From: Tautonia marina
GTDB taxonomy: Bacteria; Planctomycetota; Planctomycetia; Isosphaerales; Isosphaeraceae
Direction of reading: 5' to 3'
DNA: 64,000 nt
Assembly: GCF_009177065.1 (NCBI RefSeq)
Contig: NZ_WEZF01000019.1
Span: 1 to 64,000, forward strand
This document shows, piece by piece, positions 15,935 to 58,203 of this stretch. The stretch's first letter is position 1, and every line of letters begins with the position of its first letter. The notes under the pieces are model-generated. The model searched no databases and was not told the origin of the DNA. It was given only the letters and a program-made list of their open reading frames with translations. The position numbers and the translations under genes are program-made.

Positions 15935-16858
15935 TTGGAGAGGGATCCAGGAACCACCACCGGAGACTCGGCGTTCTCAGTCGGAACGGTCGCCTCCTCG
16001 AAACCGTCGGCCACGGTCGACACCTTGATCATCGAGCCGCCGTCGGGGTGGCAACTGGTCAATCTTCGAGAGCTGGTGGAACGACGCGATCTGCTCGTGT
16101 TCATGACCTGGCGGGGGATCAAGGCGCGGTACGCTCAGTCGGTGCTGGGGATTGGCTGGGCGGTCTTTCAGCCGGTCATCACGATGCTGATCTACACGGT
16201 CATCTTCAGCCGGGTGGCCAAGATTTCGTTGCCGGGGAACCTTCCGTACGCGCTGGTGGCCTTCTGCGGGATTCTTCCCTGGTTGTTCTTCTCCTCAGGA
16301 CTGACGGGGGCGAGCAACAGTCTGGTCCAGAACAACCAGATGATCTCGAAGATCTACTTCCCGAGAATCATCTTGCCCCTGGCGCAGATTCTCTCGAAGT
16401 TCGTAGACCTGGGGATCATGCTGCTGTTGCTGGGGCTGCTGCTGCTCGGCTACGCGATGGCGGGGTATGATGTTGCTCCGCGCCCGGAAGCGATTGTCGT
16501 GATTCCGGCGATGATTTTGGTAGCCTTCGTCGCGGTGCTGGGGCTGAGTCTCTGGCTGGCGGCGATGGCGGTGCAGTACCGAGACGTGGCGTATGCCCTG
16601 ACCTTCGTGATTCAACTGGCGATGTACCTGACGCCGGTGATCTACACGACCGAGATGATCCCCGGTCGTCTCTTGCCCATTTTCGGGCTGAACCCGATGC
16701 TGGCGGTTATCACCGGATTCCGGGCCAGCCTGCTGGGCGCCCCGTTCGAATATCACCTTCCCCTGATCCTCGAAGGTACGCTGGTTGCCGTGATTCTGCT
16801 GGTGACCGGTCTCTTCTACTTTCGGCGATCCGAACGCTTGTTTGCCGACGTCGCCTAG
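15935..16858 (+). CDS. ABC-2 type polysaccharide export permease (Wzm-like)
   Basis: The 307-residue product has six hydrophobic segments and the conserved family start LVNLRELVERRDLLVFMTWRGIKARYAQ before helix 1, then GIGWAVFQPVITM. It matches inner-membrane permeases that export capsule or O-antigen chains with a Wzt ATPase, which is the next gene. The start is uncertain: the frame opens with TTG at 15935, and no ATG precedes the conserved part. The first 30 residues are Ser/Thr-rich and poorly conserved in type. This is the first gene of a same-strand glycan cluster running to about 26.8 kb. Confidence 0.88.
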   Translation: MERDPGTTTGDSAFSVGTVASSKPSATVDTLIIEPPSGWQLVNLRELVERRDLLVFMTWRGIKARYAQSVLGIGWAVFQPVITMLIYTVIFSRVAKISLPGNLPYALVAFCGILPWLFFSSGLTGASNSLVQNNQMISKIYFPRIILPLAQILSKFVDLGIMLLLLGLLLLGYAMAGYDVAPRPEAIVVIPAMILVAFVAVLGLSLWLAAMAVQYRDVAYALTFVIQLAMYLTPVIYTTEMIPGRLLPIFGLNPMLAVITGFRASLLGAPFEYHLPLILEGTLVAVILLVTGLFYFRRSERLFADVA

Positions 16859-16942
16859 ACTTGAAGTGCATTCGAGCCCTTGGCGTGGCGTTGGTTCCTC
16901 GTCCGTTCCCCTCCGCATCCCAGAGTTCTTCCGAACATCATC

Positions 16943-18262
16943 ATGTCGAACACCGCCATCAGTGTCGAAGGACTGAGCAAGCTTTACCGGATCGGCCTCG
17001 CGGAGGAGCGGCACGAATCGCTGCTCTCTGCCTCGATCGATGCGATGAAGCGCCCGCTGAAGAACTTCCGCAAACTCTGGCGGCTGGACACCTCACGATC
17101 GGGGGCCGAAGAGGAGGCGGATCTCATCTGGGCCCTCCGCGATGCATCCTTTGAGGTTTCGCAGGGGGAGGTTCTCGGGGTCATCGGCCGCAACGGCGCG
17201 GGGAAATCGACCCTGCTGAAGATTCTTTCCCGAGTCACCTGCCCGACCGCTGGCCGGGTGGTGGTTCACGGGCGTGTGTCCTCATTGCTGGAAGTCGGCA
17301 CCGGGTTTCACCCCGAGCTGACCGGCCGCGACAACATCTATCTGAACGGCACGATCCTCGGCATGACCCGTCGGGAAATCGACCGGAAGTTCGAGGAGAT
17401 CGTCGAGTTCTCGGGCATCTCCAGATTTCTTGACACGCCGATCAAGCGCTACAGCTCGGGCATGAAGGTTCGGCTGGCGTTCTCGGTGGCGGCTCATCTT
17501 GATCCCGAGGTTTTGATCATCGACGAAGTGCTAGCCGTCGGCGATCTTGAATTTCAGCAGAAGTGCCTGAGCAAGATGCGGGATCTTTCGTCCGACCGCG
17601 ATCGAACGGTCCTGTTCGTCAGCCACAACCTCGGCGCTCACCAGGCCCTTTGCGACCGAGGGATCGTGCTGAGCCAAGGGCAATTGAACTTTGATGGCCC
17701 GATTTCGGAGGCGATCAACTTCTACCTCCAGTCCAACACGCCAACCTCCGACCGCCAGTCGTTGCTGGAGGTAACCAACCGACGGGGGAGCGGGGAGATT
17801 TTGATCAAGGACATCCGATTTATCGATGCCGAGAGTGGGACCGAGTTGCTGACGTTCATTCCTGGTCGCTCGGTGCGTGTTGAGATCGGGTACCTGAACC
17901 GAAGCGACTCCCCGATGTCGGAGGTCGAATTTTCCATCGGCTTTCGGACCATGCACGGCCAAAAGCTGACCGAATTACGAAGTGGATTCGCCAATCGATT
18001 CTTTGAGACAGAGTCTGGGGAGGGAGTCGCCTCTTGCACCATTCCCCGATGGCCGTTGAGCCGAGGCCATTATTACTACCACTGTCAGATTCACGCGAAG
18101 CGACAGCTCATCGACCTGATTAACCCCGTCGGTCAGATTGAAGTCGAACGCGGCGATTTCTACCAGAAGGGTGGTCGACTCATGAACGAGGACGGCATGA
18201 TTTTCGCCGATTTCGACTGGTCGCTCTCGGGTGGCGTACCCTTGGAGGTTAATTTCGATTGA
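16943..18262 (+). CDS. ABC transporter ATP-binding protein with Wzt C-terminal domain
   Basis: The 439-residue product starts at the ATG of MSNTAISVEGLSKLY. Walker A GRNGAGKST is at residues 82-90, the signature YSSGMKV near 170, and Walker B VLIIDEVLAVGD near 190-201. Residues about 270-439 form an additional beta-rich Wzt-C domain, including FIPGRSVRVEIGYLNRSD; in O9a-type exporters this domain binds the non-reducing end of the finished glycan. It is 84 bases after the permease. The C-terminal domain suggests that export depends on a chain-end modification, for which the sulfotransferases or pyruvyl transferase are candidates. Confidence 0.9.
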   Translation: MSNTAISVEGLSKLYRIGLAEERHESLLSASIDAMKRPLKNFRKLWRLDTSRSGAEEEADLIWALRDASFEVSQGEVLGVIGRNGAGKSTLLKILSRVTCPTAGRVVVHGRVSSLLEVGTGFHPELTGRDNIYLNGTILGMTRREIDRKFEEIVEFSGISRFLDTPIKRYSSGMKVRLAFSVAAHLDPEVLIIDEVLAVGDLEFQQKCLSKMRDLSSDRDRTVLFVSHNLGAHQALCDRGIVLSQGQLNFDGPISEAINFYLQSNTPTSDRQSLLEVTNRRGSGEILIKDIRFIDAESGTELLTFIPGRSVRVEIGYLNRSDSPMSEVEFSIGFRTMHGQKLTELRSGFANRFFETESGEGVASCTIPRWPLSRGHYYYHCQIHAKRQLIDLINPVGQIEVERGDFYQKGGRLMNEDGMIFADFDWSLSGGVPLEVNFD

Positions 18263-20100: not shown

Positions 20101-21348
20101 ATGAACCTCCTCCTCGTCAACGACACCAGCACGAACCCGAACCTGGGATGCCAGGTGACGATGTTCATGCTCAACCGATTGGTGGAACGCCACTTTCCGG
20201 GAGCGAGTGTCGAACGGATCTTTCTTTCGACGATCAATCATCCGTTCACAGAGGATGAGCGTCGGGATCTGCTGCCGTCGGAGGTAACGACGATCGAGCA
20301 ATCGGCCGACCGGATGATGAGGTCGCCGTTGCCGGTGCTGACTGATCTGGTCGAGAAGCTAAGGTGGGCCGACCTGGTGGTGATCAACGGCGAGGGGTCG
20401 GTGCTGGAGGATCAGGCGAACTCGCGGATGGTCCTCATGATTTGCGACCTGGCGTCGCGGCTCGGGGCCGAATGCCACCTGATCAACTTCACGGCGCACC
20501 TGTCGCGGCCTTCGGCCGTGGAACTGGCCCGGCATGCCTTTGGCCGCTGTGCCACGGTTAGTGTCCGCGAACCACTTTCATATCTGCTGGTCAAGAAGTT
20601 CTTCCCGGATGTTCGACTCTTTCCCGACATCGTCATCGGGGTCCGAGAGGAACTGATCGGCCAGCTCAACGGGTCGCAACTGCCCGAACCTTTGGTGATG
20701 ATCGGGGGAGGATCGGCGACCATTCGGATGGAACGCCAGCCGGTTCCTGGGGGACGGAAGCATCGGCTTGGCCGGCTTCTCGGCCTTGAACGCAGCGCCG
20801 CGCCGATGGACCGGCTCCGGAGACGATTCGGTCGGATTGTGCGTCGGCTCGTGGCGCAAGGAGTCCACGTTCGCCTGATGGGATGGCCGCGCGATGAGTG
20901 GCTGGAAGACCTGGCGATCGATCCCAGGGCCGTGTATGAGGTGCCCGACTTCCGCCGCTATGTCGAGGTCGCGGGCCGATCGGTCGTGAACTTCACGGGC
21001 CGGCACCACGGAAACGTCATGAGTGCCTCGGCCGGTTGCCCATTCATCACGACGACGGCGAATTGCTTCAAGAACTACGGCGATGTGATGCTCTTCGGCT
21101 CTCCCGGCCCCGTGCTGGAGATGGAACGGCTGGACGACGCGGCGGCCCTGACGGCGATCGAGCAAACCCTCGCCGATCCGGAGGGCCACCGGGCCGAGGC
21201 CGAGCGACGCCGCGACGCCATTCTTCCCTTTACCGACGGAGCGCTCAGGAATATCGGCATGCGGATTGACGACGTGGTCGATGCCGGTCTCATCGAGGGA
21301 GTGTCGGGAGAGGCCGCCGCGAACTATGTTCAGCATATGACTCCCTGA
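20101..21348 (+). CDS. Polysaccharide pyruvyl transferase family protein
   Basis: The 415-residue product starts MNLLLVNDTSTNPNLGCQVT, the typical N-terminus of this GT-B-like family. A VVINGEGSVLEDQ loop comes near residue 95, then a VSVREPLSYLLVKKFFPDVRLFPDIV segment and a C-terminal FTGRHHGNVMSASAGCPFI. Such enzymes attach pyruvate ketals from PEP to sugars, adding negative charge. GC content returns to the normal high value. A sugar acceptor within the exported glycan is likely. Confidence 0.85.
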   Translation: MNLLLVNDTSTNPNLGCQVTMFMLNRLVERHFPGASVERIFLSTINHPFTEDERRDLLPSEVTTIEQSADRMMRSPLPVLTDLVEKLRWADLVVINGEGSVLEDQANSRMVLMICDLASRLGAECHLINFTAHLSRPSAVELARHAFGRCATVSVREPLSYLLVKKFFPDVRLFPDIVIGVREELIGQLNGSQLPEPLVMIGGGSATIRMERQPVPGGRKHRLGRLLGLERSAAPMDRLRRRFGRIVRRLVAQGVHVRLMGWPRDEWLEDLAIDPRAVYEVPDFRRYVEVAGRSVVNFTGRHHGNVMSASAGCPFITTTANCFKNYGDVMLFGSPGPVLEMERLDDAAALTAIEQTLADPEGHRAEAERRRDAILPFTDGALRNIGMRIDDVVDAGLIEGVSGEAAANYVQHMTP

Positions 21349-21390: not shown

Positions 21391-22431
21391 ATGAACAAGA
21401 AGCTCGTTCTGCTCGCAACCGACCGCTACTCGATCAACATTAACGATTTCTACATGTTTTATCGGCGCACCGGCCATCAGATCGAGGCCCTGGTGCATCA
21501 CACCAATTGCCCTGGGAAAAAGTGGTGGGCCGAAGGTCGATTTCCCGATCCGGCGCGGGAGAAGCTGCTCGATCCCCTCGACCTGGACCGTTTGAAGCTG
21601 GTTCCGTACACCGAGCCGGACGAGGTTCCCGGTCTGCTCGACGGTCTGGACTTCGACTACGTATGCATGGGGAACGGCAACGCCGAGGAACACCGAAGGG
21701 TCGTCGATCACATCGGGATCGATCGCTGCCTGTTCACCGAGTACGGGTGGCTTCCGTGGAGTAAGAACTTCTATATTTCTCGGGGAGGGTGCGGCGTTCG
21801 GTCGGAAATTCGGGACGTCGATGCCGCCACACTCGACCGCCAGCCGCTTCGTGAGGCGGAAGTGGAGGGGTTCCGGCGGACGCTCTCGAAGGGATGGCCG
21901 GTGCTCCGGCGGGGCTTTGTCTACGTGCCGTTGCAAAAGGATGTGAACGACTTCAAGTTCACCTTCTGCAATTTCCAGAACAACGTCGAGTTTCTCGACT
22001 TCATCCACGGGATTGTCCCCCCCGGGATGCGGATTGTCGTGAAGGAACACCCGCTTTACCGTCAGCATTACGACTATGCGAAATACGGCCGAGGTCGGTT
22101 CACGGACATCTCCGACAAGAAACTGAACAAGGCCATGCTGTACCGGAACATGGCCGCGATGATCTGCATTAACAGCACCTCGATTCTGGAGGCGCTGGCC
22201 TTTGGGGGAAAGGTCTTCGCTTATGGAGAAGACCTTTACATGAACAAGGATCTGGTGCATTTCCGGGTCACGGACTCCTCGGAGTTCGAACGGTTGCTGG
22301 GAATGGACCAGTCTCGGGAACGCTGCGATCGCTTCATCTCGCTGTTGATGGAGCGGCAGGTTGACCGTCGCCGTTGCCTGACCGAGGACCGCGATTACAT
22401 CGAGGGCCATTACTGGAACCGGGCCATCTGA
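21391..22431 (+). CDS. Capsule polysaccharide glycosyltransferase (KpsS-like)
   Basis: The 346-residue protein resembles capsule-synthesis transferases of the KpsC/KpsS type. The recognisable parts are GFVYVPLQKDVNDFKF, MRIVVKEHPLY near residue 216, and ICINSTSILEALAFGGKVFAYGEDLY near 255-280. KpsS-type enzymes use CMP-activated keto-sugars (CMP-Kdo), which fits a cluster that makes a CMP-nonulosonate. There is no membrane segment. The assignment rests on pattern rather than on a catalytic triad, and another glycosyltransferase family is possible. Confidence 0.65.
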   Translation: MNKKLVLLATDRYSININDFYMFYRRTGHQIEALVHHTNCPGKKWWAEGRFPDPAREKLLDPLDLDRLKLVPYTEPDEVPGLLDGLDFDYVCMGNGNAEEHRRVVDHIGIDRCLFTEYGWLPWSKNFYISRGGCGVRSEIRDVDAATLDRQPLREAEVEGFRRTLSKGWPVLRRGFVYVPLQKDVNDFKFTFCNFQNNVEFLDFIHGIVPPGMRIVVKEHPLYRQHYDYAKYGRGRFTDISDKKLNKAMLYRNMAAMICINSTSILEALAFGGKVFAYGEDLYMNKDLVHFRVTDSSEFERLLGMDQSRERCDRFISLLMERQVDRRRCLTEDRDYIEGHYWNRAI

Positions 22432-22470: not shown

Positions 22471-23730
22471 ATGCCGATCAACGTCGTCTCCTTCTCGAAT
22501 ACTCCGCTTGCCGGCGCCCCGATCCGGATTAGCCGGGCCGTCGATCGGCACCCGGAGATTCGGGCGCGCCACGTGGACCTGAAGCGTTGGGGCATCTTCG
22601 ACCACGACCACGTGCACGAGGAGGATCCGGAGCAGACCCTCGCGCTGGCCGAGCAGGCCGACGTGATCCAACTGTTCAACGCCGTGTCGGCCGACAGCCG
22701 AGACTTCGCCCCGGTCGACTTTCGTGCCCTGGAGCGTCGCGGCGCGCGGCTCGTCCGGATGTTTGAAAGCACGCCGATGATGGTGGCGAGCGTTGCGGGC
22801 GTGACGGTCGATGAGGTGCTTTCCGACCCGACGCCGAAGCTGGTCATCACGCAGTACCCCGAGCGGTTCTTCCCGACCGCCCGGGTCGTCCCGAACCTCG
22901 TGCCGGAAGACTCGCCCGCCTATCTGCCTCCGGACGAGGAGCCCGACCTCGACGTCGTCTTCAGCCCGAGCTGGGCCAGCAGCGCCTGGTGGGCTCGGTG
23001 GGATACCAAGGGAACACCGGAAACCGTCGCGATGCTCCAGCGCCTGGAGCGCCGAACGGGAGCCCGCACCGCCTTCATCCGCTCGCGACCGCTCAGCGAG
23101 GTCATGCAGTTGAAGCGGCGTTCTCGAATGATTATCGACGAATTGATCACAGGCAGCTATCATCTCTCGGGTCTGGAAGGGCTGAGCCTCGGTCGCGCCG
23201 TTTTGGCCTATCTCGACGAGCGAGCCGACCGGGTGCTTCGGGTCTTCTCCGGTTCCGAGCAATGCCCCTTCATTAACACTCGCCTCGAAGACGCCGGAGC
23301 GGTGTTGGAGTCGCTGCTGAAGCATCCCGACGAACTCGCCGAGTTGGGCAGGGAGTCGAGGGCCTGGCTGGAGCAGTACTGGTCGCAGGCCTGGCTCGTC
23401 GAGCAGCACTATCTGGCCGTCTATCGAGATCTGCTCGAATCTCCGGATCGGGTGACCCGACAGCCCGAGTTGTCGCTCGACGGCGGCGCCGAGCGGCTTC
23501 GCACGTTCGTCATTCCCGACGCAATCTACGCGGCCCGAGCCGAGGTGGGCCGGGAAGGAAACTCCCGCGTGATCCAGTCGGCCCGAGCCGTGCGTTCGTG
23601 GGCTCAAAAGGTCAAGCAAGCCCTCCGCCGACCGGCCGCTCGGCCATCTGCCTCCCAACCCGCGGCGACCCCGGACCGATCGGAACGACCGCCCGTCTCA
23701 AACCCTCGCGAAACGACCCAGGTATCATGA
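22471..23730 (+). CDS. Putative glycosyltransferase
   Basis: The 419-residue protein has a GT-B-like layout. An N-terminal part carries INVVSFSNTPLAGAPIRISRA, then ADVIQLFNAVS and ARLVRMFEST. A C-terminal part carries YHLSGLEGLSLGRAVLAYLDE and ends in helices with LEQYWSQAWLVEQHYLAVYRDLL, like the end of group-1 glycosyltransferases. The last 75 residues are Arg/Pro-rich. Donor and acceptor are unknown. Its stop overlaps the start of the next gene (ATGA), so the two are translationally coupled. Confidence 0.6.
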   Translation: MPINVVSFSNTPLAGAPIRISRAVDRHPEIRARHVDLKRWGIFDHDHVHEEDPEQTLALAEQADVIQLFNAVSADSRDFAPVDFRALERRGARLVRMFESTPMMVASVAGVTVDEVLSDPTPKLVITQYPERFFPTARVVPNLVPEDSPAYLPPDEEPDLDVVFSPSWASSAWWARWDTKGTPETVAMLQRLERRTGARTAFIRSRPLSEVMQLKRRSRMIIDELITGSYHLSGLEGLSLGRAVLAYLDERADRVLRVFSGSEQCPFINTRLEDAGAVLESLLKHPDELAELGRESRAWLEQYWSQAWLVEQHYLAVYRDLLESPDRVTRQPELSLDGGAERLRTFVIPDAIYAARAEVGREGNSRVIQSARAVRSWAQKVKQALRRPAARPSASQPAATPDRSERPPVSNPRETTQVS

Positions 23731-24929
23731 CGACGCTGGCCATCATCCCCGCTCGCGGGGGCTCCAAGGGCATCCCCAGGAAGAATGTGCTGCCGGTTGG
23801 CGGCAAGCCGATGATCGGCTGGACGATCGAGGCGGCGCGCGCGGCGCGGAGCGTGAATCGCGTGGTCGTCTCAACGGATGATCCGGAGATCGCCGCGATT
23901 GCTCGCCGGTTCGGGGCCGAGGTGGTCGATCGGCCCGCGGAGCTGGCGGGGGACTCGGCATCGAGCGAGGCGGCGCTGCTGCATACGCTGGACGTGCTGC
24001 GGGATGGCGACGGGTACGAGCCGGATCGGCTCGTGTTCCTGCAGTGCACGTCGCCTCTGACGGCGGCTGAGGACATTGACGGGACCATCGCGGCGCTGGA
24101 ACGAGACAAGGCCGATACGGCCCTGGCAGTGGTGCCGTTCCATTACTTCCTGTGGAAGCATGATGGGGGCGGCGACGGCGTCGGAATCAATCACGATAAG
24201 CGGACCCGACCGCTCAGGCAGGATCGAGAGCCGCAGTATCTGGAGTCGGGGGCCGTCTATGTGATGAAGGTTGCCGGCTTCCGCGAGGCGAAGCATCGGT
24301 TCTTCGGCAAGACGGCGCTTTACGAGATGCCTTCGGAACGTCGATGGGAAATCGACGATCCCGTGGATCTGGAAGTGGCCGAGGTTTTGCTGCGAGCCCG
24401 CTCGAAGGCCGAGAAGCAGTCGCTGCTGCCAGAGAAGCTCGATGTGCTGGTCTTCGATTTCGACGGCGTGTTCACCGATAATGGCGTGATCGTTCTCGGC
24501 GAAGGGCAGGAAGCGGTCGTCTGCAGCCGGGGAGACGGCATGGGTCTGGAACTCCTCCGCAAGGCCGGCTGGCCGATGGTGGTGATTTCGAAGGAGACGC
24601 ACCCGGTCGTCTCGGCGCGGTGCGCGAAGCTGAAGATCGAATGCATCCAGGGAATCGAAGATAAGCTTCCGACCTTACGTCGATGGCTCGACGAGAGAGG
24701 GTTTGCCCTGGAGCGAACGCTTTATGTCGGCAACGACGTGAACGACCTGTCGTGCCTGACGGCCGTCGGATGTCCGGTGGCCGTGGCCGACGCCCACCCC
24801 GAGGCGCTCCGGGCGTCTCGGATCATCCTGGAATCACCGGGGGGCCGCGGAGCCCTTCGAGAACTGGCTGACCTTATCCTCAGTTCGGAGTCTGTCCGGC
24901 AAGCATCGCCCCCATCAAGCTCGAGTTGA
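23727..24929 (+). CDS. CMP-nonulosonate synthetase fused to KdsC-like HAD phosphatase
   Basis: The 400-residue protein is bifunctional. Residues 1-235 are an acylneuraminate cytidylyltransferase, with the CTP-binding IPARGGSKGIPRKN at 6-19 and LQCTSPLTAAEDID. Residues about 238-395 are a HAD phosphatase of the KdsC type with all motifs: DFDGVFTDN from Asp244, Ser in VVISKE, Lys in GIEDKLP and GNDVND at 335-340. Animal CMAS enzymes have the same layout but with a degraded HAD domain. An active pair would dephosphorylate a nonulosonate 9-phosphate and then activate it with CTP. The start overlaps the previous stop by four bases. Confidence 0.88.
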   Translation: MTTLAIIPARGGSKGIPRKNVLPVGGKPMIGWTIEAARAARSVNRVVVSTDDPEIAAIARRFGAEVVDRPAELAGDSASSEAALLHTLDVLRDGDGYEPDRLVFLQCTSPLTAAEDIDGTIAALERDKADTALAVVPFHYFLWKHDGGGDGVGINHDKRTRPLRQDREPQYLESGAVYVMKVAGFREAKHRFFGKTALYEMPSERRWEIDDPVDLEVAEVLLRARSKAEKQSLLPEKLDVLVFDFDGVFTDNGVIVLGEGQEAVVCSRGDGMGLELLRKAGWPMVVISKETHPVVSARCAKLKIECIQGIEDKLPTLRRWLDERGFALERTLYVGNDVNDLSCLTAVGCPVAVADAHPEALRASRIILESPGGRGALRELADLILSSESVRQASPPSSSS

Positions 24930-24953
24930 CTCTTATTGGAGTTCGCTTTTCTC

Positions 24954-25862
24954 ATGAACAAACAAGAGCCCGATTCTTTAAAGTTTTTTTTCTGTATTGG
25001 ATCGGAGAAAAGCGGGACTTCAATCCTGGCACGGGTGCTGGATCAGCACGCTGAGATTGCTTGTCTTTACGAGAGCTACCTGCTCGAACCGTATCACCAG
25101 AGCTGTCTGATCAATCCAGCCGGCACGAGGTGGGAGAAACAAGGATTTAACCAGCGAGCAATTCAGGGGTGGTGGAATCAGCTTCGTAAGGGAATGTATC
25201 CTTCCCGTCGTCGTCGCCTTTTAAATCGCCTGGTCGGTAAGCGAGGGACTCCGGCCGCCGTCGTTCGTCGGGTCATGACCGAAGTGTTCAGCGATTTCGC
25301 CCTTCGCACGAACGCCCGAATTGTCGGGGACAAATGGCCATTCTACATTGACCATCTCGAGTTGATCCTCGAAGCATTTCCAGACGCGAAGTTTATTTAC
25401 AATGTCCGAGATCCGCGTGGCCTGTGGTCCTCAGGACAGAAATTCAAGGATCGTGGACGCGGTGATCATGTGCTCCAGGGAATGCTCAAACGGGACGCAA
25501 AAATTCAACCATTTCTGACGCGTTCTAATTTCCTCACAGTGAGATACGAGGATCTCATTGCCTCGCCTTCGGAAACTGCTCGGAAACTGTGGGGGTTCCT
25601 GGGAGCCGAATACAAGGAAGAATACCTCAATTATGATCCGGCCAGGGATCCCTACCCCCAGCGCTGGGGCTGGGTACCTGAGACCGTCAAACCTCTGAAC
25701 CCCGAATCGACCGAGAAGTGGCGCACCCAAATGACTCCTGAGCAAATTGCTCGGGTCAACGAGATCAGCGGCGATTTCATTGCCCATTACCACTACGATT
25801 TGACCCCTGGAACCGGGCCCGTTCAGCCAACGGGTACCGAACACAACTCCTCAACACGTTGA
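24954..25862 (+). CDS. Sulfotransferase family protein
   Basis: The 302-residue product starts at ATG 24954. The PAPS loop FFCIGSEKSGTSIL is at about residues 12-25, and FIYNVRDPRGLWSS provides the second binding region, as in Sulfotransfer_1/3 proteins. A C-terminal segment RWGWVPETVKPLNPESTEKW resembles the end of glycan sulfotransferases. It is the second, unrelated sulfotransferase of the cluster, so two positions may be sulfated. It sits between the CMP-sugar synthetase and the NeuB-like gene. Composition is somewhat AT-richer than those neighbours. Confidence 0.82.
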   Translation: MNKQEPDSLKFFFCIGSEKSGTSILARVLDQHAEIACLYESYLLEPYHQSCLINPAGTRWEKQGFNQRAIQGWWNQLRKGMYPSRRRRLLNRLVGKRGTPAAVVRRVMTEVFSDFALRTNARIVGDKWPFYIDHLELILEAFPDAKFIYNVRDPRGLWSSGQKFKDRGRGDHVLQGMLKRDAKIQPFLTRSNFLTVRYEDLIASPSETARKLWGFLGAEYKEEYLNYDPARDPYPQRWGWVPETVKPLNPESTEKWRTQMTPEQIARVNEISGDFIAHYHYDLTPGTGPVQPTGTEHNSSTR

Positions 25863-25871
25863 GACTTCCAC

Positions 25872-26756
25872 ATGCCTAAGGTTGTTTCGATCGGCGGTCG
25901 GCCGGTTGGTGAAGGTCACCCCGTTTATGTCATTGCCGAGATCGGCCTGAACCACAACGGCGACATGAAGCTCGCCAAGCAACTGATCGACGCCGCCGCC
26001 CTGGCCGGTTGCGACGCCGTGAAGTTCCAGAAGCGCACGCCGGAGCTGTGCGTTCCTCCCGAGCAGCGCGACATCCGTCGCGATACCCCGTGGGGGGAAA
26101 TGACCTACATGGAGTATCGCTACCGGGTCGAGTTCGGCAAGGACGAGTTTGCCGAGATCGACCGATACTGCAAGGACAAGGGGATCGCCTGGTTCGCCTC
26201 GTGCTGGGACGAGCCGTCGGTCGACTTCATCGAGCAGTTTGACCCCCCTTGCTACAAGATGGCCTCGGCGTCGTTGACCGACGATAGCCTGTTCAAGCAC
26301 ACGGTGGCTACGGGCAAGCCGATCATCCTTTCGACCGGCATGTCGACGATGGAGGAGATCGAGCACGCCGTTTCGCTCTGCAATCCCGAGAAGCTGGTCA
26401 TCCTGCACGCAACCAGCACCTACCCGTGCAAGCCCGAGGAACTGAACCTGCGGGTCATTCCGGTGTTGCAGGCGAAGTTCGACGTTCCGATCGGGTACTC
26501 GGGCCACGAGGTCGGCCTTCAGACGACCCTGGCCGCGGTGAGCCTGGGGGCCTGCGTCGTCGAGCGGCACATCACCCTCGATCGCGCCATGTGGGGCAGC
26601 GACCAGGCCGCCTCGGTCGAACCCTCGGGCTTCCATCGGCTGGTCCGGGATATCCGGGTCATCGAGAAGGCCATGGGAGACGGGGTCAAGCGGGTCTACG
26701 AGAGCGAACTGCCGATCCAGAAGAAGCTCCGCCGCGTTGGCGCCGCGACCTCCTGA
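25872..26756 (+). CDS. NeuB-type nonulosonate synthase lacking the SAF domain
   Basis: The 294-residue protein is a TIM-barrel synthase that condenses PEP with a hexose or hexosamine. Family motifs are YVIAEIGLNHNGD (19-31), AVKFQKRTPE, CYKMASASLTDDSLF, IILSTGMSTMEEI, ILHATSTYPC, GYSGHE and VERHITLDR. Most NeuB enzymes are about 340 residues with a C-terminal SAF (antifreeze-like) domain that closes the partner active site. Here the chain stops just after PIQKKLRRVG, where SAF would begin. No NeuC-type epimerase lies in the window. With the fused synthetase-phosphatase, this fits a route from a sugar 6-phosphate. Confidence 0.87.
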   Translation: MPKVVSIGGRPVGEGHPVYVIAEIGLNHNGDMKLAKQLIDAAALAGCDAVKFQKRTPELCVPPEQRDIRRDTPWGEMTYMEYRYRVEFGKDEFAEIDRYCKDKGIAWFASCWDEPSVDFIEQFDPPCYKMASASLTDDSLFKHTVATGKPIILSTGMSTMEEIEHAVSLCNPEKLVILHATSTYPCKPEELNLRVIPVLQAKFDVPIGYSGHEVGLQTTLAAVSLGACVVERHITLDRAMWGSDQAASVEPSGFHRLVRDIRVIEKAMGDGVKRVYESELPIQKKLRRVGAATS

Positions 26757-56487: not shown

Positions 56488-58203
56488 ATGAAGATCTCTC
56501 GCAAGCAGTACGCCGACCTGTACGGCCCGACCGTTGGCGACAAGATCCGGCTCGGCAACACCGACCTCTACGTCGAGATTGAGAAGGATCTCCGCGTCTA
56601 CGGCGACGAGCTGATCACCGGCGGCGGCAAGACCCTCCGCGACGGCATGGGGTCCGACAACCAGCTGACCCAGGAGGCCGGCTGCCTCGACCTCGTCATC
56701 ACCAACGTCACGATCCTCGATCCGATCCTCGGCGTCATCAAGGCCGACGTCGGAGTCCGCAACGGCCGGATCGTGGGGATCGGCAAGGCCGGCAATCCGG
56801 GAACGATGGACAATGTGACCCCAGGGCTCGTCACCGGCACCTCGACCGATGCGATCTCCGGCGAGCACCTGATCCTCACCGCCGCCGGCATGGACACCCA
56901 TGTCCATTACATCTGCCCCCAGCAGGTCTGGCACGCACTGTCCAACGGCATCACCACCCTCTGGGGGGGCGGAATCGGCCCGACCGATGGCACCAACGGC
57001 GTCACCACCACCAACGGCCCCTGGAACCTGGAGATGATGCTCCGGGCCGCCGAGGGGCTGCCGATTAACTGGGGATTCCAGGGCAAGGGGAACAGCAGCG
57101 GCCACGCCCCGCTGGTCGAGCAGCTCCGCGCCGGGGCGGCCGGGTTCAAAATCCACGAGGACTACGGGACAACCCCGTCCGCCATCCGAAGCTGCCTGTC
57201 GGTGGCCGAGGAATACGACGTTTCTGTGGCGGTGCATACCGACACGCTCAACGAGTCGGGCTTCGTCGAAGACTCAATCGCCGCCTTCGACGGCCGAACG
57301 ATCCACACGTACCATTCCGAGGGGGCGGGCGGCGGCCACGCTCCCGACCTGCTCAAGGTGGTCGGCCAGCCGAACGTCATGCCCAGCTCAACCAACCCGA
57401 CGCTCCCCTGCGGCGTCAACTCGGTGGCCGAGCTGTTCGACATGATCATGGTCTGCCACAACCTCAACCCGAAGATCCCCTCCGACGTCTCCTTCGCCGA
57501 GAGCCGGGTCCGGGCCGAGACGATCGTGGCCGAGAGCGTCCTTCACGACCTGGGGGCGATCTCGATGATCGGCAGCGACGCGCAGGCCATGGGTCGCATC
57601 GGCGAGCACTTCCTCCGTGCCTTTCAGACAGCCGACGCCATGAAGAAAGCCCGCGGCAAGCTCAGTGAGGACGCCCCGGGCAACGACAACTTCCGGGCCC
57701 TCCGCTACCTGGCCAAGGTCACGCTCAATCCCTGCATCACCGCCGGGATTTCCCATGTCCTCGGTTCGATCACCCCGGGCAAACTCGCCGACCTTGTCCT
57801 TTGGGAACCGGCCTTCTTCGGAGCCAAGCCGAAACTCGTCCTCAAGGGTGGATTCATCGTCTGGGCGAACATGGGTGACCCCAACGCCTCGCTTCCCACC
57901 CCCCAACCGATGGTCTACCGCCCAATGTTCGGTGCCTTCGGCTCGACCACGCAGAAGACGTGCATCTCGTTCGTCTCCCGGCTGGCCTACGACCTGAACG
58001 TCAAGGAGCAGTACGGCCTGACCCGAATGGTCGAACCCGTCGTCGGAACCCGGGTCCTCACCAAGCGGCACATGGTCCGGAACGACTACCTGCCGAAGAT
58101 CGACGTGAACCCGCAGACCTTCGCCGTCACGATCGAGGGTGAGCATATTACCGTCACCCCGCCGAAGTCGATCGCTCTGAACCAGCTCTATTTCTTCAGT
58201 TGA
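56488..58203 (+). CDS. ureC: Urease subunit alpha (catalytic)
   Basis: The 571-residue catalytic subunit starts [19 protein letters not shown]. The carbamylated lysine is Lys221 in GFKIHEDYG. The nickel-site region [11 protein letters not shown], the [13 protein letters not shown] segment and [15 protein letters not shown] are present. The mobile flap reads VCHNLNP (Cys323, His324), keeping the catalytic His but with Asn at the next position, where many ureases have His. Length is normal. A nine-pair hairpin and a 324-base gap separate it from the accessory genes. Confidence 0.97.

Follow-up and report, generated by a model that had tools for sequence, protein, structure and literature searches.

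A two-protein module predicted to make CMP-Kdn in Tautonia marina and its single-chain counterpart in Streptosporangiaceae

Which activated sugar acid does a bacterium make when it joins a cytidine monophosphate (CMP)-ulosonate synthetase to a phosphatase in one protein and encodes a NeuB-type synthase close by? The question is raised by a 64,000-nucleotide stretch of the Tautonia marina genome (the window: positions 1 to 64,000 of contig NZ_WEZF01000019.1, our contig C19, from an assembly of 80 contigs that is 97.76% complete). The two genes of interest are the synthetase–phosphatase fusion (23727–24929, 400 aa) and the synthase (25872–26756, 294 aa), both on the + strand; a sulfotransferase open reading frame (ORF) lies between them, in agreement with an earlier note on this DNA that had placed the synthase one gene away from the fusion. 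The same note proposed that the two polypeptides cover three steps leading to the CMP-activated form of 2-keto-3-deoxynononic acid (Kdn). Judged from sequence, it is quite probable that they do so, and that together they constitute a compact CMP-Kdn pathway.

The proposed pathway is as follows. The synthase, which lacks an SAF domain, would condense mannose 6-phosphate with phosphoenolpyruvate (PEP) to give Kdn 9-phosphate; the fusion would then remove the phosphate with its HAD half; and its N-terminal half would combine Kdn with cytidine triphosphate (CTP) to yield CMP-Kdn. The product would feed a polysaccharide that the surrounding genes build and export: a Wzm/Wzt exporter, a possible KpsC/S-like transferase, sulfotransferases and a polysaccharide pyruvyl transferase family protein. 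Sequence comparison reveals the domains, their catalytic residues and markers, a genome in which no NeuC or NanE was found, and a conserved linkage that extends to three-domain frames; the exact substrate, the order of the steps and the flux through them, transfer between domains and the nature of the polymer are what we infer. A CMP-Kdn pathway is already known, and this system is a compact version of it that occurs widely; its newer part is the form in which all three domains lie on one chain.

The fusion divides into a CMP-ulosonate synthetase (residues ∼1–225) and a HAD domain of the KdsC type (∼236–390) that resembles KDN-9-phosphate phosphatase. CTP_transf_3 (PF02348) matches residues 5–131 with 87.8 bits, and the best solved CMP-sialate synthetase aligns to residues 4–223. 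By its family match and its signature the synthetase half appears to be a member of the CMP-sialate synthetase family: its best scores and alignments are to CMP-sialate, CMP-Kdn and CMP-pseudaminate (CMP-Pse) synthetases, with KdsB lower, and on the PseF model TIGR03584 the fusion reaches 133.4 bits, below the cut-off of 205.7. Among the nearest solved synthetases is PDB 9t4z (111.4 bits), titled PpNeuA CMP-Kdn synthetase, which we take to be the enzyme of the alga Prymnesium parvum. The AlphaFold model of the fusion (mean predicted local distance difference test, pLDDT, 90.2) leads to the same neighbors: counting Z scores within 1 as a tie, the nearest solved folds for the synthetase half are CMP-sialate synthetases (6ifd, Z 30.5; 9t4z, Z 29.2, root-mean-square deviation (rmsd) 3.1 over 220 residues), and for the HAD half the Streptomyces avermitilis structure 3mmz (Z 25.7, rmsd 2.2 over 160 residues), ahead of both KdsC and KDN-9-phosphate phosphatases.

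All catalytic residues that the earlier note had named were located in the HAD domain: D244 and D246, S288 (in VVISKE), K313 (in EDKLP) and N336/D337/D340 (in GNDVND). The note had also set the fusion apart from animal CMAS, where the corresponding domain is degraded, and for the mouse protein this is right. Mouse CMAS has the same two kinds of domain, a synthetase (PDB 1qwj) and a KdsC-like HAD domain (PDB 3ewi), which belong to one protein; in contrast to the fusion, the first motif-I Asp of 3ewi is Asn (CNIDG versus FDFDG), the Asp of GND is Glu, and two marker residues are replaced, the positions of window E290 and R298 holding Arg and Ser.

The marker residues bear on which sugar phosphate the HAD domain accepts. 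In Bacteroides thetaiotaomicron, where we take BT1713 to be the phosphatase, BT1714 the synthase and BT1715 the synthetase, Glu56, Arg64 and Lys67 of BT1713 (PDB 3e81) are assumed to bind the sugar and to mark KDN-9-phosphate phosphatases as against KDO-8-phosphate phosphatases; the titles of PDB entries 4hgq (E56A mutant) and 4hgr (E56A/K67A mutant) are in line with this rule. Glu290 of the window protein occupies position 56, where the aligned KdsC sequences have Arg. The main search for relatives of the fusion kept the best 80 of 575 confirmed candidates, most of them from Streptomyces, and its counts lean towards that genus. In a MAFFT alignment of 86 rows, which stand for 85 distinct fusions (locus L005 being the window itself), the Glu/Arg/Lys set is kept throughout (86/86 rows, 85/85 distinct), as are the catalytic residues, save for a Thr in place of Ser at one motif-II position. 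The synthetase signature is intact in 83 of the 85 (84 of 86 rows); L008 and L009 have lost it but retain the HAD residues.

HAD proteins without a synthetase half tell a different story. Among 22 from genomes of the same order that match the fusion over its HAD part only, 21 read Arg/Arg/Glu at the marker positions, and Haemophilus influenzae KdsC and the Pseudomonas syringae protein 3mn1 have, at positions 56 and 67, Arg and Asp, and Arg and Ser, respectively. The marker residues thus rule out the 22 HAD relatives as the same enzyme, except for L019 (genome G010, contig C370), which stands apart from the other 21 of its order with Glu/Tyr/Lys. A separate curiosity is found in the window's own family, where genomes G021 (L008 and L159) and G022 (L009 and L160) encode fusions of 41–43% identity whose synthetase signature is degraded and whose HAD residues are intact: a mirror image of animal CMAS. 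In the stretches read around these fusions no NeuB was seen, and exporter genes lie downstream.

The synthase is equally distinctive. It matches PF03102 with 274.5 bits (E 9.5e-82) and ends after the barrel, with no SAF domain in Pfam scans; the AlphaFold model shows a complete barrel (pLDDT 91.8). The TIM-barrel fold is that of Neisseria NeuB, Campylobacter PseI and Bacillus SpsE, but these are longer chains that carry the SAF domain, and they lack a motif, here called QKR, that the window protein displays: Gln53, which by alignment is Gln55 of Neisseria NeuB, is directly followed by Lys54 and Arg55. Both residues are invariant in 75 of 75 module synthases (a count that leaves out L068 and L005 and keeps apart the Sphingomonadaceae loci L035, L038 and L040, also QKR), and the two are absent from the four solved chains compared (Neisseria, SpsE, PseI and Leptospira). 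Pfam detected SAF in none of 24 module synthases (alignment A1), and in all 79 loci with a NeuB match above 100 bits no more than 33 residues follow the match.

The two features go together beyond the module. We assembled 92 NeuB ORFs, 90 from a sample of the phylum plus L006 and L007 from the window's genus, leaving out the window and four ORFs that were incomplete or lay at or close to the end of a contig (G253, G318, G265 and G278:C462), and called a synthase SAF-less when fewer than 40 residues formed its tail; a Pfam check found SAF in 0 of the 15 short-tailed and 74 of the 77 long-tailed proteins. QKR is present in 12 of the 15 and in 5 of the 77 (Fisher p 6.5e-9, kinship ignored). On these sequence grounds the SAF-less QKR synthase is a type distinct from the solved NeuB, PseI and SpsE enzymes. 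Lys54 and Arg55 may bind the sugar phosphate, and the motif is suggestive, and no more than suggestive, of mannose 6-phosphate use. Two further observations concern synthases of other kinds or places. Eight of the 77 SAF-type NeuB frames also match CTP_transf_3 (alignment A4; for example L200, L233, L244 and L205) and are, by these scans, another kind of synthase–synthetase fusion without a HAD domain. Escherichia coli KE47 has a short-tailed QKR NeuB (L172, 3266–4834) with a weak CMP-synthetase match nearby; the record, of 4.9 Mb, is labeled a plasmid.

Synthase and fusion travel together. The linkage survey comprised 86 rows, of which 84 are relatives (L005 is the window and L010 a synthetase only). 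In 72 of the 84 loci the NeuB match starts between −60 and 200 bases from the fusion stop on the same strand; two others have NeuB ∼785 bases away, one has the two fused, and in three sphingomonads NeuB, also QKR, lies 2.7–4.0 kb off. Many Streptomyces loci have the two genes next to each other, and the pair, complete with QKR and Glu/Arg/Lys, is found on two Sinorhizobium fredii plasmid stretches (L273 and L274). In G041 and G042, two genomes of the window's genus, no sulfotransferase separates fusion and synthase, which lie side by side; the intervening gene of the window is therefore a local difference. Relatives at 57–65% identity to the fusion occur in Chloroflexi, Sphingomonas, Kiritimatiellae and other planctomycetes alike, whereas those of the same-family genomes G021 and G022 reach 41–43%; so patchy a spread suggests horizontal transfer. 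The module is thus widespread and not peculiar to this genome. The full fusion is nevertheless patchy in its distribution: it is present in 5 of 45 genomes of the order and, at E 1e-45, a match is present in 9 of 197 genomes of the phylum (the window's included in both counts; two of the nine match over the HAD part only). In G040, a genome of the same genus, nothing matches any part of the fusion, the HAD part among them, at E 1e-20.

In one family the linkage goes a step further. Locus L094, from Planotetraspora sp. A-T 1434 (Streptosporangiaceae), is a single open frame of 703 codons that encodes synthetase, phosphatase, a Pro/Thr/Ala-rich linker and synthase. Among 200 genomes sampled from the family, 92 match at 1e-60, and in 75 of these one uninterrupted frame spans the whole query; seven have exactly one in-frame stop, nine have two separate matches (three at contig ends) and one is partial. 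Four of the seven one-stop genomes were read, and each has an in-frame ATG after the stop; these four, together with G061 and G164, are most simply understood as two genes. In all 30 uninterrupted frames that were read (686–745 codons) the key residues of the three domains are those of the window proteins. A chance open frame in high-GC DNA was considered and is thought unlikely, because 75 genomes share the frame and because third-position GC at the joint is 0.90–1.00, as in coding sequence, in 29 of the 30 loci measured (the pattern did not pick up L135). Against a single chain, a Shine–Dalgarno-like pentamer occurs in 15 of 29 joints, in L132 with a GTG 8 bases after it, and re-initiation inside the frame is possible. 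Of all the evidence for placing the three activities in a single pathway, the one-chain form is the strongest.

The earlier note saw no NeuC near the genes and proposed a search of the whole genome; that search was run and found none. The sole match to Epimerase_2 (PF02350) is WecB (395.7 bits, cut-off 210.15), with 60.1 bits on the NeuC model against a cut-off of 235.9. The absence of a hydrolysing UDP-GlcNAc 2-epimerase (NeuC) for a route to N-acetylneuraminate (Neu5Ac) is well supported though not absolute, given an assembly of the completeness stated above and in 80 contigs. Across the order, none of 45 genomes has a protein above the cut-off of the NeuC model. The 80 named module loci (6.8–17.3 kb, median 17.2 kb) and five others were likewise searched for homologues of NeuC or WecB, and none was found. 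NanE has no match in the window's genome. We saw no source of N-acetylmannosamine (ManNAc) 6-phosphate by way of NanE or a GNE-like epimerase; GlcNAc 2-epimerase (AGE) and ManNAc kinase were not searched for. The genome does encode a class I mannose-6-phosphate isomerase (ManA-type) domain (52 bits, cut-off 22). It has no NeuB besides the window synthase: two weaker PF03102 matches were set aside, by eye, as 3-deoxy-arabino-heptulosonate 7-phosphate (DAHP) synthases. Of the other cytidylyltransferases, a CTP_transf_3 gene on contig C29 scores better than the fusion (190.8 bits) and is taken for KdsB, and a third, weak match (22.7 bits) lies on C2. No separate KdsC exceeds its cut-off in the genome.

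The phosphorylated Kdn route is itself established for B. thetaiotaomicron (UniProt Q8A710–Q8A712) and P. parvum, according to PMC6200933. The bacterial pathway is the one proposed here, with three steps from mannose 6-phosphate and a HAD enzyme bearing Glu56, Arg64 and Lys67; the difference is that it uses three separate proteins, against two in the window and one in an actinobacterial family, and that the window HAD falls below the cut-off of the BT1713 model. The algal route likewise uses separate proteins, and PMC6200933 reports that no phosphatase homologue was found in the alga. Kdn is a component of teichulosonic acid in Streptomyces walls (PMC11481543). In S. coelicolor the teichulosonic acid genes are SCO4873–SCO4882 (PMC13011467), among which SCO4880 is listed as a sialic acid synthase (PMC8269224); its neighbor would be the fusion. 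That cluster serves an actinobacterial wall glycopolymer, whereas the window genes appear to serve an ABC-exported, possibly sulfated polysaccharide. A Kdn polysaccharide has also been described from S. fredii, to judge by a title cited in PMC9000132. A term search of the open-access literature (titles and abstract openings), which is weak evidence on what is in print, returned no such fusion, two-gene rule, one-chain form or Kdn in Planctomycetes.

Several observations weigh against the CMP-Kdn pathway. Six of the 84 loci have no NeuB: L104, where the stretch ends just past the fusion, L008 and L009, where none was seen after extension to 6.6 and 19 kb, and L034, L036 and L041. The synthase falls below the cut-offs for NeuB (266.1 versus 399.65) and PseI (TIGR03586; 223.5 versus 340.25), and the HAD domain reaches 75.5 bits on the BT1713-type KDN-9-phosphatase equivalog NF058599 (cut-off 180), less than on two KdsC models (99.6, cut-off 208; 93.9, cut-off 106.95). 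Tail length and motif are not perfectly coupled: three short synthases lack QKR (L260, L268 and L269), as does the short, solved Leptospira enzyme 6ncs, and five long ones have it (L230, L239, L241, L243 and L246), the L243 genome also containing a Glu/Arg/Lys HAD (L272). Kdn chemistry has been reported for strains other than those whose loci we compared, so that the agreement is at the level of the taxon. At L227 a QKR synthase is accompanied by a HAD with Glu/Leu/Arg at the marker positions. On an Azospirillum thermophilum plasmid (L173, 4932–6944) a SAF-less QKR synthase accompanies a HAD with a degraded synthetase part, without signature, the pair being divergent from an adjoining legB–legC–neuC cluster; and on a Methylomagnum ishizawai plasmid (L168, 1886–7498) a QKR synthase, 66% identical to that of the window, and a separate Glu/Arg/Lys HAD lie beside split transketolase, aminotransferase and short-chain dehydrogenase/reductase genes with no CMP-synthetase annotated, possibly as genes for another product. 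It is because of L173, L168 and L227, which suggest that this type of synthase may make more than one product, that we call the CMP-Kdn pathway quite probable and put it no higher.

These last loci lend themselves to an alternative in which the same chemistry makes a different nonulosonate, or a modified 2-keto-3-deoxy acid, from another sugar phosphate: in L168 the companions of the synthase hint at another product, and in L173 the neighboring cluster is of the legionaminate type. We regard this as unlikely, since in Streptomyces and S. fredii, both of which have the pair, the sugar reported is Kdn, and since each gene of the window that might decorate the product is found next to the pair in at most one of the 80 named loci. 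A shade less probable is an animal-type route, in which ManNAc 6-phosphate would give Neu5Ac 9-phosphate and the fusion would turn this into CMP-Neu5Ac. BT1713 reportedly accepts Neu5Ac 9-phosphate as well. Phospho-type synthases can use both substrates, as the human enzyme does (Table 2 of PMC6200933), and in Serratia marcescens whose capsules contain Kdn, Neu5Ac is seen as well, at about 1:20 (PMC9000132). Set against this are the epimerase searches described above: with neither a hydrolysing UDP-GlcNAc 2-epimerase nor NanE found in the genome, no known source of ManNAc 6-phosphate is seen, and the module loci do not supply a NeuC or WecB homologue. The synthase also lacks the SAF domain, in which, we assume, Arg314 of Neisseria meningitidis NeuB contacts the N-acetyl group.

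The scores of the HAD domain invite a third thought, namely that the fusion is a KdsC/KdsB-like enzyme of 3-deoxy-manno-octulosonate (Kdo) synthesis, making CMP-Kdo: KdsC models outscore the KDN-9-phosphatase model, and nowhere else in the genome does a KdsC exceed its cut-off. The latter point leaves room for a second role of the fusion in Kdo synthesis, although a second, better CTP_transf_3 gene is present. As an account of what the fusion is for, CMP-Kdo is very improbable: position 56 is Glu and not Arg, position 67 is Lys, the synthetase half is closest to CMP-sialate, CMP-Kdn and CMP-Pse synthetases and above KdsB, the C29 gene (190.8 bits) is available as a separate CTP_transf_3 protein, the linked synthase is NeuB and not KdsA, and G040, of the same genus, does without the fusion and its HAD part at the threshold given above. 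The least probable case of all is that the HAD half is structural only, as in animal CMAS, and that another phosphatase or a non-phosphorylated route is used. The animal protein shows that a degraded HAD domain can persist; in the fusions, catalytic and marker residues are conserved in the 85 distinct proteins, the single Thr for Ser apart, and persist even in L008 and L009, where it is the synthetase signature that has been lost.

Taken together, the epimerase searches (no NeuC or NanE found), the ManA-type domain, the Glu/Arg/Lys set, the SAF-less QKR synthase, the linkage of the pair in 72 of 84 loci, its union in one frame in 75 of 92 matching Streptosporangiaceae genomes and Kdn polymers reported from taxa with the pair support the Kdn route of the earlier note, two polypeptides for three steps, with the substrate still an inferred one. 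On balance we also favor, with less assurance, a broader account: that the window pair is the split form of the Streptosporangiaceae single-chain CMP-Kdn synthase, which would convert mannose 6-phosphate, PEP and CTP to CMP-Kdn; that its SAF-less synthase would bind the sugar phosphate through QKR, which would replace the contact that classical NeuB makes with the N-acetyl group; and that, by way of compact modules like these, Kdn would be a commonplace surface sugar of bacteria in several phyla.

The surroundings of the pair point to an exported polysaccharide. One same-strand run, all on the + strand, extends from an ABC polysaccharide exporter (15935–18262) to the synthase. The exporter comprises a Wzm-like permease (15935–16858; best 70.2 bits, below the equivalog cut-off of 380) and an ATPase with a Wzt C-terminal domain by Pfam (16880–18262). 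There follow a polysaccharide pyruvyl transferase family protein (20101–21348; 42.4 bits, cut-off 25.3, and below the CsaB cut-off) and a weak Capsule_synth (KpsC/KpsS-like) protein (21391–22431; 25.9 bits, cut-off 20). The latter is a candidate user of the CMP-ulosonate; a search for a solved KpsC-type relative among structures gave none, only two chance-level matches. The next protein (22471–23730) has no Pfam or NCBIfam match at E 0.05, and its gene overlaps the ATG start of the fusion by 4 bases. The Sulfotransfer_3 (Pfam) gene between fusion and synthase spans 24936–25862 (first ATG at 24954). Of the window's neighboring genes, Wzt-like ORFs occur in 35 of the 80 named loci and Wzm-like ORFs in 6; the second sulfotransferase, the pyruvyl transferase and PhyH occur in one each; and the first sulfotransferase, Capsule_synth and the 22471 protein occur in none. 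Elsewhere in the window, Rfam reports a 5_ureB_sRNA match at 56635–56935 on the − strand (47.4 bits, gathering threshold 40).

If the CMP-Kdn pathway is correct, then the combination of QKR in a SAF-less NeuB, a Glu/Arg/Lys HAD and no NeuC would be a sequence rule that helps to tell makers of Kdn from makers of Neu5Ac, legionaminate and pseudaminate, whose synthases go under common labels such as ‘N-acetylneuraminate synthase family protein’. The module would provide a one- or two-protein catalyst for CMP-Kdn, and the order of its domains would bear on the origin of that of animal CMAS. Kdn would then be predicted in many bacteria, and in the polysaccharide of this genome.

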